Source of the DNA: Anaerolineales bacterium
GTDB taxonomy: Bacteria; Chloroflexota; Anaerolineae; Anaerolineales; Villigracilaceae
Length of the DNA: 42,969 nucleotides
Assembly (NCBI GenBank): GCA_016789365.1
Contig: JAEURH010000018.1
Coordinates: forward strand, 1 to 42,969
Reading direction: 5' to 3'
The notes beneath the pieces are model-generated. The model ran no database searches, had not been told where the DNA came from, and worked only from the letters and a program-made list of their open reading frames with translations. This document shows, in pieces, positions 22,106 to 25,128 of this stretch (its first letter is position 1; each line of letters begins with the position of its first letter). A program made the position numbers and the translations under genes.

Positions 22106-23074
22106 TTAGTTCTTCCTTGCCGAATCAGCAGTGAACGAGCCGCCCGGTGAAGGTGTAGCAGAAACAATCTCTTGCACGATTTTGTCTGAACTTAAATCTC
22201 TCAACCTTGCGGCTGGACTAACAATAATACGATGCGCCAATACTGGCACAGCCAACGCTTTTATATCATCTGGCAAAACATAATCACGCCCTTGTAATGC
22301 CGCCATTGCCTGCCCAGCCCGTGCTAACGATAAACTTCCTCTTGGGCTGGCACCTAAATATACATCTTGACTTTGGCGTGTCCGCACACTTAACTCAACA
22401 ACATATCGCTTAATCGTATTCGATACATATACTTTCTTAACCGCATTGACTGCTTGCAATAATTCCTTCACTTTAACAACGGGTTTCAAACTCTCAATCG
22501 GGTGAGCCAACTTTTGGTCATCAATGATGCGAATTTCATCCAAAATGTTTGGATAGCCCAAACGCATTCGCAAAAGGAAACGGTCAAGTTGCGCTTCTGG
22601 CAATGGAAACGTGCCTTCATATTCAATTGGATTTTGGGTTGCTAACACCATGAATGGTTGCGGCAATGGATGTGTGACTCCATCTACTGTGATTTGGCGT
22701 TCTTCCATCGCTTCTAATAATGCGGCTTGCGTTTTGGGTGTAGCACGGTTAATTTCATCTGCCAAAATGATTTGTCCCACAATCGGTCCCGCGCGAAATT
22801 CAAATTTCTTTTTTTGCTGGTTATAAATTGAAATTCCCGTTACATCGCTAGGGAGCATGTCTGGTGTAAATTGAATGCGATTAAACACACAATCTAATGA
22901 GCGGGCTAAACTGCGTGCTAGCATTGTTTTTCCAACGCCTGGCACATCTTCAATTAATATATGTCCTTGGCACAATAAACCAATCAAAACAAATTCAAGT
23001 GATTGATTTTTTCCAACGATGACTTTTTGTAAACTTTCTCGCACGCGCTCCCCAAACAATTTGACATCTACCAT
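22106..23074 (-). CDS. MoxR-family AAA+ ATPase
   Basis: 322 aa, standard for the family. Walker A is [16 protein letters not shown] near residues 42-57, Walker B is [24 protein letters not shown] near 105-128, and the sensor-1 region is [24 protein letters not shown]. The C-terminal lid has [32 protein letters not shown]. MoxR proteins act as chaperones in metal or cofactor insertion and in maturation of VWA/DUF58 partners. It is the first gene of the minus-strand operon; a weak promoter (TAGAAT near 23106-23111) diverges from the tRNA promoter. Confidence 0.93.
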
Positions 23075-23138
23075 TCGGCATTATCCTTTTTAATAAGATG
23101 CGCCGATTCTATCACGGCTTGGGCTTGGTGAAATCGTG

Positions 23139-23144
23139 TATAAT
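23139..23144 (+). promoter_or_regulatory. -10 box of the tRNA-Arg gene
   Basis: A perfect TATAAT ends 9 nt before the first base of the tRNA, giving a very short 5' leader. Confidence 0.55.
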
Positions 23145-23153
23145 TTTGGTTAC

Positions 23154-23226
23154 GCCTCAGTAGCTCAATGGATAGAGCGCCTGACTTCGGATCAGTAGGT
23201 TGTGGGTTCGACTCCTGCCTGAGGCG
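23154..23226 (+). tRNA. tRNA-Arg (anticodon UCG)
   Basis: A 73-nt cloverleaf drawn by hand. The acceptor arm is GCCTCAG with CTGAGGC, all seven pairs. D-arm: GCTC/GAGC. The anticodon loop is CTTCGGA with anticodon TCG. The T-arm is GTGGG-TTCGACT-CCTGC with one G-T and one T-G pair. The discriminator is G. CCA is not encoded. The top pair of the anticodon stem (27-43) is a C-T mismatch, which is unusual but leaves four pairs. The last 20 nt are repeated in tandem immediately downstream. Confidence 0.9.
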
Positions 23227-23547
23227 CCTTCTTTAACAACATTGTCAGCGGTTGCCCCCATTGAGGGGATGCCATGAGTTCGGCTCCTGCCTGAGGCGCC
23301 TTCTTTAACAACATTATCAGCGGTTGCCCCCATTGAGAGGGGATGCCATGAGTTCGACTCCTGCCTGAGGCTACTTCTTTAACAACATTGTCAGCGGTTG
23401 CCCCCATTGAGGGGATGCCATGAGTTCGGCTCCTGCTTAAGGCACCTTCTTTAAGAACATTGTCAGCGGTTGCCCCCATTGAGGGGATGCCATGAGTTCG
23501 ACTCCTGCCTGAGGCACCTTTTCTTTAACAACATTGAGGGGATGCTA
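23206..23547 (+). repeat. Tandem array of tRNA-Arg 3'-end units
   Basis: Units start at 23206 (inside the tRNA), 23278, 23352, 23424 and 23496; lengths are 72, 74, 72, 72 and a shortened last unit of about 52. Each begins with GTTCGACTCCTGCCTGAGGC or a close variant, the tRNA T-loop to acceptor 3' strand. A shared spacer of about 52 bp follows, with a CCCC...GGGG hairpin around CATTGA. Copies differ at scattered positions (GGC/GAC, TTAAGG, a 2-bp insertion, a deletion in the last). The rest of the 420-bp gap, 23548-23646, holds nothing I recognise. Confidence 0.92.
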
Positions 23548-23646
23548 TATTTGAAAGATATTTAATAACAGGCAAACTACTACGAAATGCTTACTATGAG
23601 GGATATTAAAGCGTATATCAATAAATTAAGAATCTAGGAATTTTTG

Positions 23647-25128
23647 ATGAGCGAAGAAACAAATGAAAGATATAAAGAAGTTACAAAAAAAGCGGCACGG
23701 GGTATGGGGTGGAATTATATATCTTTTGGCGCAACAAAATTTTTAAGCTTAATTACGCTTTCAATTCTGGCGCGGTTACTATTGCCAGAAAATTTTGGTT
23801 TGCTAGCGCTGGCAACCTTAACCATGGATTACTTAGCAATTGTCAGCGATTTAGGGTTTGGCGCGGCGCTCATCCAAAAGAAAGACAAAATTACCGAATC
23901 TGCTAATGTTGCTTTTTTTATTAACTTTTTCGCAAGTATTGCTCTTACCTTAGTTATATTTTTTATAGCACCGTATGCTGCGCTTTTCTTTCGCGAACCC
24001 GAACTAACTGCTGTATTAAGATGGTTAAGCCTTACCTTTGTCTTAAAATCTGGTGGTGCTATTCAAAATGTGTTACTTCAACGGGAATTAGATTTTAGAA
24101 AAAAAATCGTTCCAGAACTTAGTAGTGCAATTATCAAAGCGACTGTATCCATCACATTAGCGTCCATGGGGTTTGGCGTATGGGCATTGGTGGTTGGTCA
24201 GTTAATTGGGGTACTTTCAACATCAATTATTTTATGGATAGTTGTTCCATGGAGACCTCAATTTCATTGGGATACAAAAATAGCAAAAGACCTTTTCACT
24301 TATGGGCTTTCTATTATGGGGGTCAGCGCGTTGACATCATGGGAAGATAATTTCGATTACCTAATCATTGGTAGATTGTTTGATACAACTGACTTAGGAG
24401 TATATACAATTGCATATCGCCTGCCAGAAACATTAATCCTGAATACTATGTGGGTTATGACGGCAGTTTTATTCCCAGCTTTTTCAGCCTTACAAAATGA
24501 TAAAGAAGCGTTGAAGAAAGGATTTTTATCCACAGTTCGCTATGTTGAACTATTAGTTGTCCCGCTTTGTTTAGGCATGTTAGCAGTAGCCGACCCATTA
24601 ATCAGAGTTGTCTTTGGCGAGCAATGGGTAGAAGCAATTCCATTGTTAAGGATTATTAGTCTTTACACTCTGATTATTTCAATTGGGTTTCATGCAGGTG
24701 ATGTGTATAAAGCCATAGGGAGGCCAGATATTCTATTAAAAGTGTCTATCCCTTTATTTCCAATGCGTTTAATTTGTTTATGGATTGGCGCACAGTATGG
24801 TTTGCTAGGCGTTGCTTATGGGCATTTAGCCGCAGAAATTATTTCCTCTTGCGTAAACTTAATTATCATTAGAAAAATGATTGGCGTAAAATTATTAGAA
24901 CTTTTAAGAGAATTAAAAGCGTTTATAGCAGGGGCTGTATTATTAGTTTCGGCATTGTTAGTAGTTTATCTCAGCACACAACTTTCACCTGTTTATCAAC
25001 TAGTGCTTAGCATAGTAGCAGGTGGGTTTGGGTATTTGGTAACGGTTTGGTTTATTGAACGAGAGTCGCTTACAACCTTATTAGAAATGATGGGTCTAGA
25101 TAATTATTTTCAGAAGAGAAACTCTTAA
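23647..25128 (+). CDS. Polysaccharide flippase (Wzx/MOP family)
   Basis: 493 aa with about 12-14 hydrophobic helices. It would flip lipid-linked oligosaccharide repeats across the cytoplasmic membrane. The N-terminal pattern AARGMGWNYISFGATKFLSLITLSILARLLLPENFGLLALATLTMDYLAIVSDLGFGAALIQKKD is the classic opening of WzxC/RfbX-type exporters, and the mid-protein ISIGFHAGDVYKAIGRPDILLKV is also typical. It starts a plus-strand unit just after the tRNA repeat array. The ATG at 23647 follows AGGAA at 10 nt. It defines the left end of the polysaccharide locus. Confidence 0.9.
   Translation: MSEETNERYKEVTKKAARGMGWNYISFGATKFLSLITLSILARLLLPENFGLLALATLTMDYLAIVSDLGFGAALIQKKDKITESANVAFFINFFASIALTLVIFFIAPYAALFFREPELTAVLRWLSLTFVLKSGGAIQNVLLQRELDFRKKIVPELSSAIIKATVSITLASMGFGVWALVVGQLIGVLSTSIILWIVVPWRPQFHWDTKIAKDLFTYGLSIMGVSALTSWEDNFDYLIIGRLFDTTDLGVYTIAYRLPETLILNTMWVMTAVLFPAFSALQNDKEALKKGFLSTVRYVELLVVPLCLGMLAVADPLIRVVFGEQWVEAIPLLRIISLYTLIISIGFHAGDVYKAIGRPDILLKVSIPLFPMRLICLWIGAQYGLLGVAYGHLAAEIISSCVNLIIIRKMIGVKLLELLRELKAFIAGAVLLVSALLVVYLSTQLSPVYQLVLSIVAGGFGYLVTVWFIERESLTTLLEMMGLDNYFQKRNS

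Follow-up and report, generated by a model that had tools for sequence, protein, structure and literature searches.

A tRNA-Arg gene with anticodon TCG in an Anaerolineales genome (G000) runs on into a tandem array of units that carry its own 3' end. The stretch analysed, called the window below, is contig G000:C99, 42,969 bases in length, and the array lies within it. Each unit copies the tRNA from the T-loop to the mature 3' end (the tail), and ahead of this copy stands a hairpin module that is short and conserved. The design recurs behind tRNAs of eleven anticodon types, where the units mostly carry the tail of the tRNA that they follow, and those behind tRNAs other than tRNA-Arg lie between two intrinsic terminators. 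The reading that we prefer, held tentatively and with a little less than even confidence, is that the array is a cluster of tRNA-linked repeats (TLR-like) in which read-through RNA would be made and the tail would be kept as a tRNA-type 3'-end signal.

The tRNA-Arg(TCG) array

The gene and its units are placed in Table 1. ARAGORN, Tandem Repeats Finder (23206-23536: period 72, 4.5 copies, 91% matches, score 556) and the positions of the tails confirmed the claim of an earlier note on this DNA that the tRNA runs into a tandem array of its own 3' end. The 20-nt tail recurs at 23278, 23352, 23424 and 23496 with 1, 0, 3 and 0 mismatches, respectively, the start-to-start spacing being 72, 74, 72 and 72; the two exact copies already reported are those at 23352 and 23496. 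The five units of about 72 bp that had been counted are correct as five tail copies, that of the tRNA included; the fifth spacer is internally deleted, so that four complete units of 72-74 bp are present, with four complete spacers bearing a CCCC/GGGG hairpin. That the array is read by the tRNA promoter, as was also proposed, is plausible. A TATAAT hexamer precedes the gene, and direct reading found it 5' of the tRNA in congener stretches of G009, G072, G016 and G036 as well, whereas the consensus scan of 22950-24000 gave no promoter-like site on the + strand.

The array is internal to its contig, and similar ones occur in G017 (two contigs) and G026 (one contig), which makes an artefact of assembly unlikely. 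The possibility of a protein-coding array was set aside: a 95 amino acid antisense open reading frame (ORF) passes through it (23192-23479) and is probably an artefact, since the 64-66 tail spacing of relatives would break its frame.

Table 1. Features of the tRNA-Arg(TCG) locus in the window
Feature	Position	Strand	Evidence and remarks
TATAAT, candidate -10 box of tRNA-Arg promoter	23139-23144	+	direct reading; missed by consensus scan
tRNA-Arg, anticodon TCG	23154-23228	+	ARAGORN; Rfam RF00005, 64.7 bits
Own 20-nt tail of tRNA-Arg	23206-23225	+	sequence GTTCGACTCCTGCCTGAGGC
Unit 1	23229-23300	+	AT-rich linker; left flank 23241-23254; hairpin module 23255-23275; tail copy 23278-23300, 1 mismatch in 20 nt
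Unit 2	23301-23374	+	left flank 23313-23326; hairpin 23327-23349 with 2-nt insertion; tail copy 23352-23374, 20 nt exact
Unit 3	23375-23446	+	left flank 23387-23400; hairpin 23401-23421; tail copy 23424-23446, 3 mismatches in 20 nt
Unit 4	23447-23518	+	left flank 23459-23472; hairpin 23473-23493; tail copy 23496-23518, 20 nt exact
Unit 5, truncated and internally deleted	23519-23550	+	linker and right half of hairpin module, without tail; direct reading, partial hairpin-core match

Distribution of the units in relatives

A search with the query matched 61 of 61 genomes, many in the tRNA sequence only. The downstream flank was read at 31 tRNA-Arg(TCG) loci, that of the window included (two have less than 120 nt downstream), and full units followed the tRNA at six of them: four each in G000, G017 (spacing 64-66) and G034 (at a contig end), three in G026, one and part of another in G033, and one in G035. 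In addition, the tRNA-Arg of G072 is followed by one unit, decayed single units were seen by eye after tRNA-Arg in G011, G010 and G032, and two further records, metagenome-assembled genomes named Anaerolineae and Anaerolineales, contain two units (L101) and one split unit (L103). The number of full units per array ranges from 1 to 4, and unit spacing from 56 to 111 nt.

The design is not restricted to tRNA-Arg. Four of the 40 tRNAs of G000 have a tail copy within 500 nt, namely Arg(TCG) with four copies, Ser(GGA) with three, Lys(TTT) with one and Pro(CGG) with one, the last with a different hairpin; in the one-contig congener G026 the figure is 6/48 (Met, Glu(CTC), Glu(TTC), Ser(CGA), Pro(GGG) and Arg(TCG)). 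The hairpin CCCC-ATTGA-GGGG-ATGAYAT was then sought with the pattern CCCCCATTGAGGGGATGAYAT at up to 3 mismatches, which misses unit 2 of the window on account of its 2-nt insertion. Matches were obtained in 40 of the 57 genomes of the genus, G000 included, and the reversed pattern, used as a control, gave none. Genus matches, class-wide matches and eight earlier loci, with identical ones merged, amount to 132 distinct sites, 117 of which have a tRNA less than 800 nt upstream on the same strand: Ser(GGA) 37, Ser(GCT) 26, Ser(CGA) 18, Arg(TCG) 14, Lys(TTT) 8, Pro(TGG) 5, Val(CAC) 3, Glu(TTC) 2, Pro(GGG) 2, Gln(CTG) 1 and Glu(CTC) 1. A single hairpin module is thus common to tRNAs of 11 anticodon types and seven amino acids (Ser, Arg, Lys, Glu, Pro, Val and Gln).

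Class-wide, at up to 2 mismatches, 18 of 396 genomes matched: ten in the genus (G000 included, and G021 with a tRNA-less match only), four of the 14 family members of other genera, and four outside the family. The matches of these last four (L216-L219) have no tRNA upstream and were taken as chance, as was one in a Phycisphaerae record (L105), which by eye has no tRNA-like context. The 15 sites without a tRNA comprise L216-L219, seven with less than 210 nt of contig upstream, L201, where the tail is present and no tRNA was called, and L147, L155 and L166. In G217, a member of the same class, none of 36 tRNAs had a tail copy in the 20 stretches searched, which cover part of its 47 tRNA matches.

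At the tRNA-Met (L242) and tRNA-Glu (L257, L260) of G026 the tail copies come with different inserts or hairpin loops, and the design may therefore be commoner than the CCCC/GGGG pattern shows. Hairpin-like matches lacking an upstream tRNA were also noted at L166 (G029:C57) and L155/L156 (G071/G021).

Tails follow the allele of the local tRNA

The 19-nt tail of the upstream tRNA was compared with 116 of the 117 tRNA-linked sites, those with enough sequence, one being dropped. It is matched exactly in 52, with one mismatch in 28, with 2-5 in 21 and with 6 or more in 15, so that 80 sites show 0-1 mismatches and 36 show at least two. The tail of the site's own tRNA is strictly the best match in 99/116, tails of other isotypes mostly having 6-10 mismatches.

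At some positions the tRNA differs between genomes. There, among units with at most 4 tail mismatches, the letter of the unit's own genome is present in 244 of 266 comparisons; counted once per unit position, the own allele is found 192 times in 208, another allele 13 times and neither 3 times. The tracking persists in the 36 of 97 units whose trailer has an identity below 0.70 to the tRNA's own trailer (58/67 letters of the own allele). In 13 of these the trailer identity is below 0.55, random pairs giving 0.57, and the letters divide 17 own to 5 other; in the remaining 23, with identities of 0.55-0.70, they divide 41 own, 3 other and 1 neither.

Hairpin module and its flanks

Across the 117 tRNA-linked sites, 463 of the 468 stem cells of the hairpin are paired. 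Twelve cells are changed on both sides and yet paired, whereas 1000 shuffles gave 1.2 on average and never more than 5; one stem pair has a T-A variant, seen at 8 loci behind Ser(GGA), Ser(GCT), Ser(CGA) and Val. Any ascertainment bias should count against the finding, because single changes cost fewer search mismatches than double ones. RNAalifold, given 17 first units behind Ser(GGA), predicted the hairpin only, with double changes in 1 of its 4 pairs.

The left flank of the hairpin, which played no part in site selection, has an identity of 0.80-0.90 between species in the first units behind five tRNA types, the same comparison giving 0.21-0.73 for the linkers and 0.31-0.51 for the following 60 nt. 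The sequence to the left of the hairpin resembles the tRNA variable loop and T-stem in Ser and Lys, and from this resemblance the left neighbour looks tRNA-derived in most units of these two types. In a gapped test Glu(CTC) (one unit) and Val (two units) score high, Val scoring low without gaps; the homology is weak for Glu(TTC) and ambiguous for Pro(TGG).

A second hairpin, such as CCCGCAAGGGGACGATGT, is found between the first hairpin and the tail at L143, L161, L172, L185, L142 and L201, and the module itself seems able to duplicate. At L140, L153, L167 and L175 the last unit of the array is incomplete and breaks off at, or just past, the 3' end of the hairpin module.

Terminators around the units

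First units were scanned for terminators, a terminator being taken as a T-run together with a stem of 6 bp or more. Behind tRNAs other than tRNA-Arg, a terminator is present between the tRNA and the unit in 52 of 58 cases and after the tail in 50 of 57, while dinucleotide-type shuffles yield one in 9%. Each set of terminators includes some 50 distinct stem sequences, such that the sequence varies and the pairing is kept. A terminator retained beyond the unit suggests passage of polymerase through it, and hence transcription of the non-Arg units. The tRNA-Arg loci differ in having no terminator between the tRNA and the first unit (0/7), with one after the tail in 4/13; lacking the first terminator, the array of the window is, we infer, probably continuous with the transcript of its tRNA.

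Proposed mode of action

Under the TLR-like reading, the units would be transcribed by RNA polymerase that reads through the first terminator; at tRNA-Arg, which showed none, it would merely run on. The tail would stay identical to that of the tRNA because it acts in the RNA as a tRNA-type 3'-end signal. The read-through RNA would be cut or trimmed after each tail, with the release of a short hairpin RNA made in step with tRNA synthesis, and copy number would shift through local duplication and deletion between tails.

A number of results weigh against this proposal. In the window itself the tail of unit 3 has diverged, the consensus scan of 22950-24000 found no terminator-like site on either strand, and neither unit 1 (23226-23299; z -0.41) nor the tRNA with its array (z +0.71) folds better than shuffled sequence. 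At the Arg loci the first terminator is missing, and left-flank homology is unsupported without gaps (6.77 against 6.91 in controls) and weak with them; Pro(GGG) lacks this homology. With a laxer terminator scan the contrast was much weaker, 53/61 against 35 and 36/61 shuffled, and 82/97 against 54-57 shuffled in a second set. The 15 sites with six or more tail mismatches fit poorly, and in three of the 40 genomes (G021, G027 and G071) the sole hairpin match has no upstream tRNA. Trailers are fairly tRNA-like, with a mean identity of 0.79 (gapped) to the tRNA's own trailer, and part of the tail identity may therefore be due to recent duplication; a sharp conservation edge at the mature 3' end, hinted at by an ungapped profile, was weaker in this gapped alignment and is not claimed. 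Because a pattern selected the hairpins and a mismatch threshold the tails, both look more conserved than they are, and counts across sites and units are not phylogenetically independent. Among 70 Ser units, T-stem pairs 1-3 and 5 are kept in 77-93% and position 4 is paired in 6 and mismatched in 64; with pairing kept only in part, the T-stem was not counted as support. By eye, no internal partner for the acceptor strand was seen in the Anaerolineales units.

Comparison with known systems

The tRNA-linked repeats of Escherichia coli were first described in 1978 and, according to PMC8144298, are without a known function; the paper lists 22 TLRs at ten loci, one to five at each, whose last 18-19 bp repeat exactly the 3' end of the tRNA or rRNA gene before them. 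In our K-12 control, run with a related script, tail copies were found at tyrV (three), in the argVYZQ cluster and at proK, and none in the leuQPV, glyVXY, serV, argX-hisR-leuT-proM and proL stretches. In alignments, the units of tyrV and proK proved to be 3' halves of a tRNA with a structured insert in the T-loop.

Like the Anaerolineales units, the E. coli elements (tyrT/tyrV rtT RNA, Rfam RF00391; rrA/rrB/rrF) follow tRNA genes at several loci as small tandem sets, and by reading they share one core across loci with different tails (tyrV, arg cluster, proK). PMC8144298 adds the 18-19 nt 3' identity to the upstream gene and, at three rrn operons, a position between two terminators that recalls the non-Arg units. 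For their part the Anaerolineales units stand downstream of a tRNA on its own strand at 117/132 sites, repeat its 3' end exactly (52/116) or with one mismatch (28/116), 2/4 being exact over 20 nt in the window, occur as 1-4 full units at several loci per genome (6/48 tRNAs in G026, 4/40 in G000), and share a core behind 11 anticodon types, which is not that of E. coli. The latter is long, with multiple hairpins, in contrast to one short CCCC/GGGG hairpin followed by ATGAYAT; the tyrV spacing is 178 as against 56-111 nt; and the phylum is different. An Rfam match to RtT (RF00391) was obtained only in the E. coli control (L128), and none in the window stretch or seven unit loci. As homology to the RtT core was not found, we call the units TLR-like and not proven homologues: their plan is that of the TLRs, their core sequence is not.

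RrA, RrB and RrF, small RNAs of the E. coli rRNA operons, likewise carry a copy of a mature 3' end according to PMC8144298, where the 3' end of the 173-nt form of RrB is mapped 3 nt past the repeated tail and an RNase E cut is suggested. They differ in binding Hfq and CsrA, the latter not found in 49/57 genomes of our genus. The attR repeats of tyrosine-recombinase elements are also displaced tRNA 3' parts downstream of a gene; those of G009 differ in that they begin on the anticodon side, lie 40-52 kb from the tRNA, and the displaced tRNA half has itself no hairpin module. The RNA 3'-ETS-leuZ derives from an external spacer and is not known to carry a copy of the tRNA tail. Like other tRNA-derived sponge fragments named in PMC8144298, it resembles the proposed unit RNA in being a functional product of the 3' portion of a tRNA transcript. 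Partial covariation support for the RtT structure (PMC8250186), rtT-like elements among bacterial interspersed mosaic elements (PMC2965389) and archaeal tRNA disruption (PMC3293823) have been reported. A literature search for 'tRNA-linked repeat' with TLR and tRNA returned PMC8144298 only, and among the matches listed there was no report of such repeats in Chloroflexota.

The Anaerolineales set offers a second, large TLR-type set from a distant phylum, with over 100 units behind eleven anticodon types as comparative material. It shows which parts are kept, namely tail, hairpin and flanking terminators, and that tails track the tRNA allele; the design does not depend on the E. coli core, and an old curiosity becomes open to testable predictions on RNA 3' ends. 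A broader proposition is speculative, and we rate it as rather improbable: TLRs would be a general bacterial design, arisen in at least two phyla, in which tRNA 3' halves are split near the T-loop by a lineage-specific hairpin, the tails co-evolving with the tRNA allele as tRNA 3'-end enzymes act on them, and the released hairpin RNA reporting or feeding back on the output of that tRNA gene.

Alternative explanations

The main rival is neutral tandem duplication, in which tail and trailer are copied by template switching between short direct repeats, aided by the hairpin, and gain and loss homogenise the tails without any function. Copy numbers of 1 to 4, near-identical linkers in several arrays, indicative of recent duplications, the 17 of 57 genus genomes without a hairpin match, and the decayed or truncated units seen by eye at L010, L014, L016, L131, L140, L153 and L167 speak in its favour. 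It does not account for one hairpin module behind many unrelated tRNAs, for which local slippage alone is insufficient, nor for tails that track the tRNA where trailers are at the random level (17:5) or near it (41:3:1); hairpin stems and terminators that keep pairing as their sequence changes also speak against it, and we consider it rather unlikely. The earlier note had offered slippage as one explanation. In a plain slippage repeat all parts would diverge alike and nothing would follow the tRNA; such a pattern was not found. Comparison of relatives, which that note had advised, showed copy number to vary yet the tRNA-derived part to be conserved and to follow its own allele, and by the note's own test the array is therefore more than a slippage repeat, although local slippage or unequal crossing-over very probably alters copy number. 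If instead the unit were a by-product of copying a tRNA end with its terminator, and selection acted on a fail-safe series of terminators insulating the next gene, the terminators on both sides of about 90% of non-Arg first units (52/58 and 50/57) would follow, but neither the tail tracking nor the conserved hairpin would, and the Arg arrays (0/7 before the first unit, 4/13 after the tail) run counter to it. This we hold to be improbable.

Repeated recombination at an attachment site, the second explanation in the earlier note, found little support, and decoy or leftover attachment sites of integrative elements that target tRNA 3' ends seem very improbable to us. The tRNA-Arg(TCG) gene does look like an integration target in congeners, and a recombinase, which the note had advised seeking in relatives, is linked to an array in G009: this array lies beside a Phage_integrase gene (PF00589, E 4e-28), and a tRNA gene whose 5' part matches is found some 40 kb off, on the contig and strand of the array. 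By reading, however, the G009 elements share an anticodon-side core that is absent from the units, and the units of G009 did not stop integration into the tRNA. No recombinase was recognised by eye among window ORFs of at least 90 aa, no family scan being run, and the hairpin patterns had no match in viral contigs. An equally faint prospect, in our judgement, is a strand-exchange attenuator, in which, within the read-through transcript, the unit tail would pair with the tRNA's T-stem and 5' acceptor strand, causing misfolding and damping tRNA output. Tracking of the tRNA allele and the want, by eye, of another partner for that strand agree with it, but the tRNA's own tail is nearer and is transcribed first. 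The third explanation of the earlier note, tRNA-3'-end mimics carried on one transcript, which might compete for RNase Z, RNase P or CCA-adding enzyme, is the best supported of its three, the same type of unit standing behind many tRNAs and, at the non-Arg ones, between maintained terminators.

Three further identities were rejected. The hairpin patterns gave no indication of a phage origin, with 0 matches in the viral contigs searched, phage and plasmid record collections being outside that search. The module contains GGGGATG, as a CsrA sponge might; CsrA (PF02599) was not found in 49/57 genus genomes, G000 included, and such a role is therefore unlikely here. Relaxed Rfam scans of the window stretch, the seven unit loci and the E. 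coli control returned tRNA, RtT in the control, and weak matches below gathering scores, and hence no known RNA family for the unit.

Probable integrative elements at tRNA-Arg genes

At L118:7212-8312 and L119 (contig G009:C70), Phage_integrase (PF00589) and ERF (PF04404) genes stand beside a four-unit array, the tRNA-Arg-like gene with the matching 5' part being located about 40 kb off on the same strand; an integrative element has probably separated this tRNA from its units. A second such element is likely on contig G009:C67 (L121/L122; 26901 and 79557), where about 52 kb separate an intact tRNA-Arg(TCG) from a displaced 3' half of a tRNA that bears one decayed unit. Finally, L120 (G009:C84:5386), L126 (G036:C33:2412) and L026 (G016:C21:110213) each hold the 5' half of a tRNA-Arg, preceded by TATAAT and broken off at the anticodon; the sequences that come next are by eye similar to one another, and another type of element may use this site.
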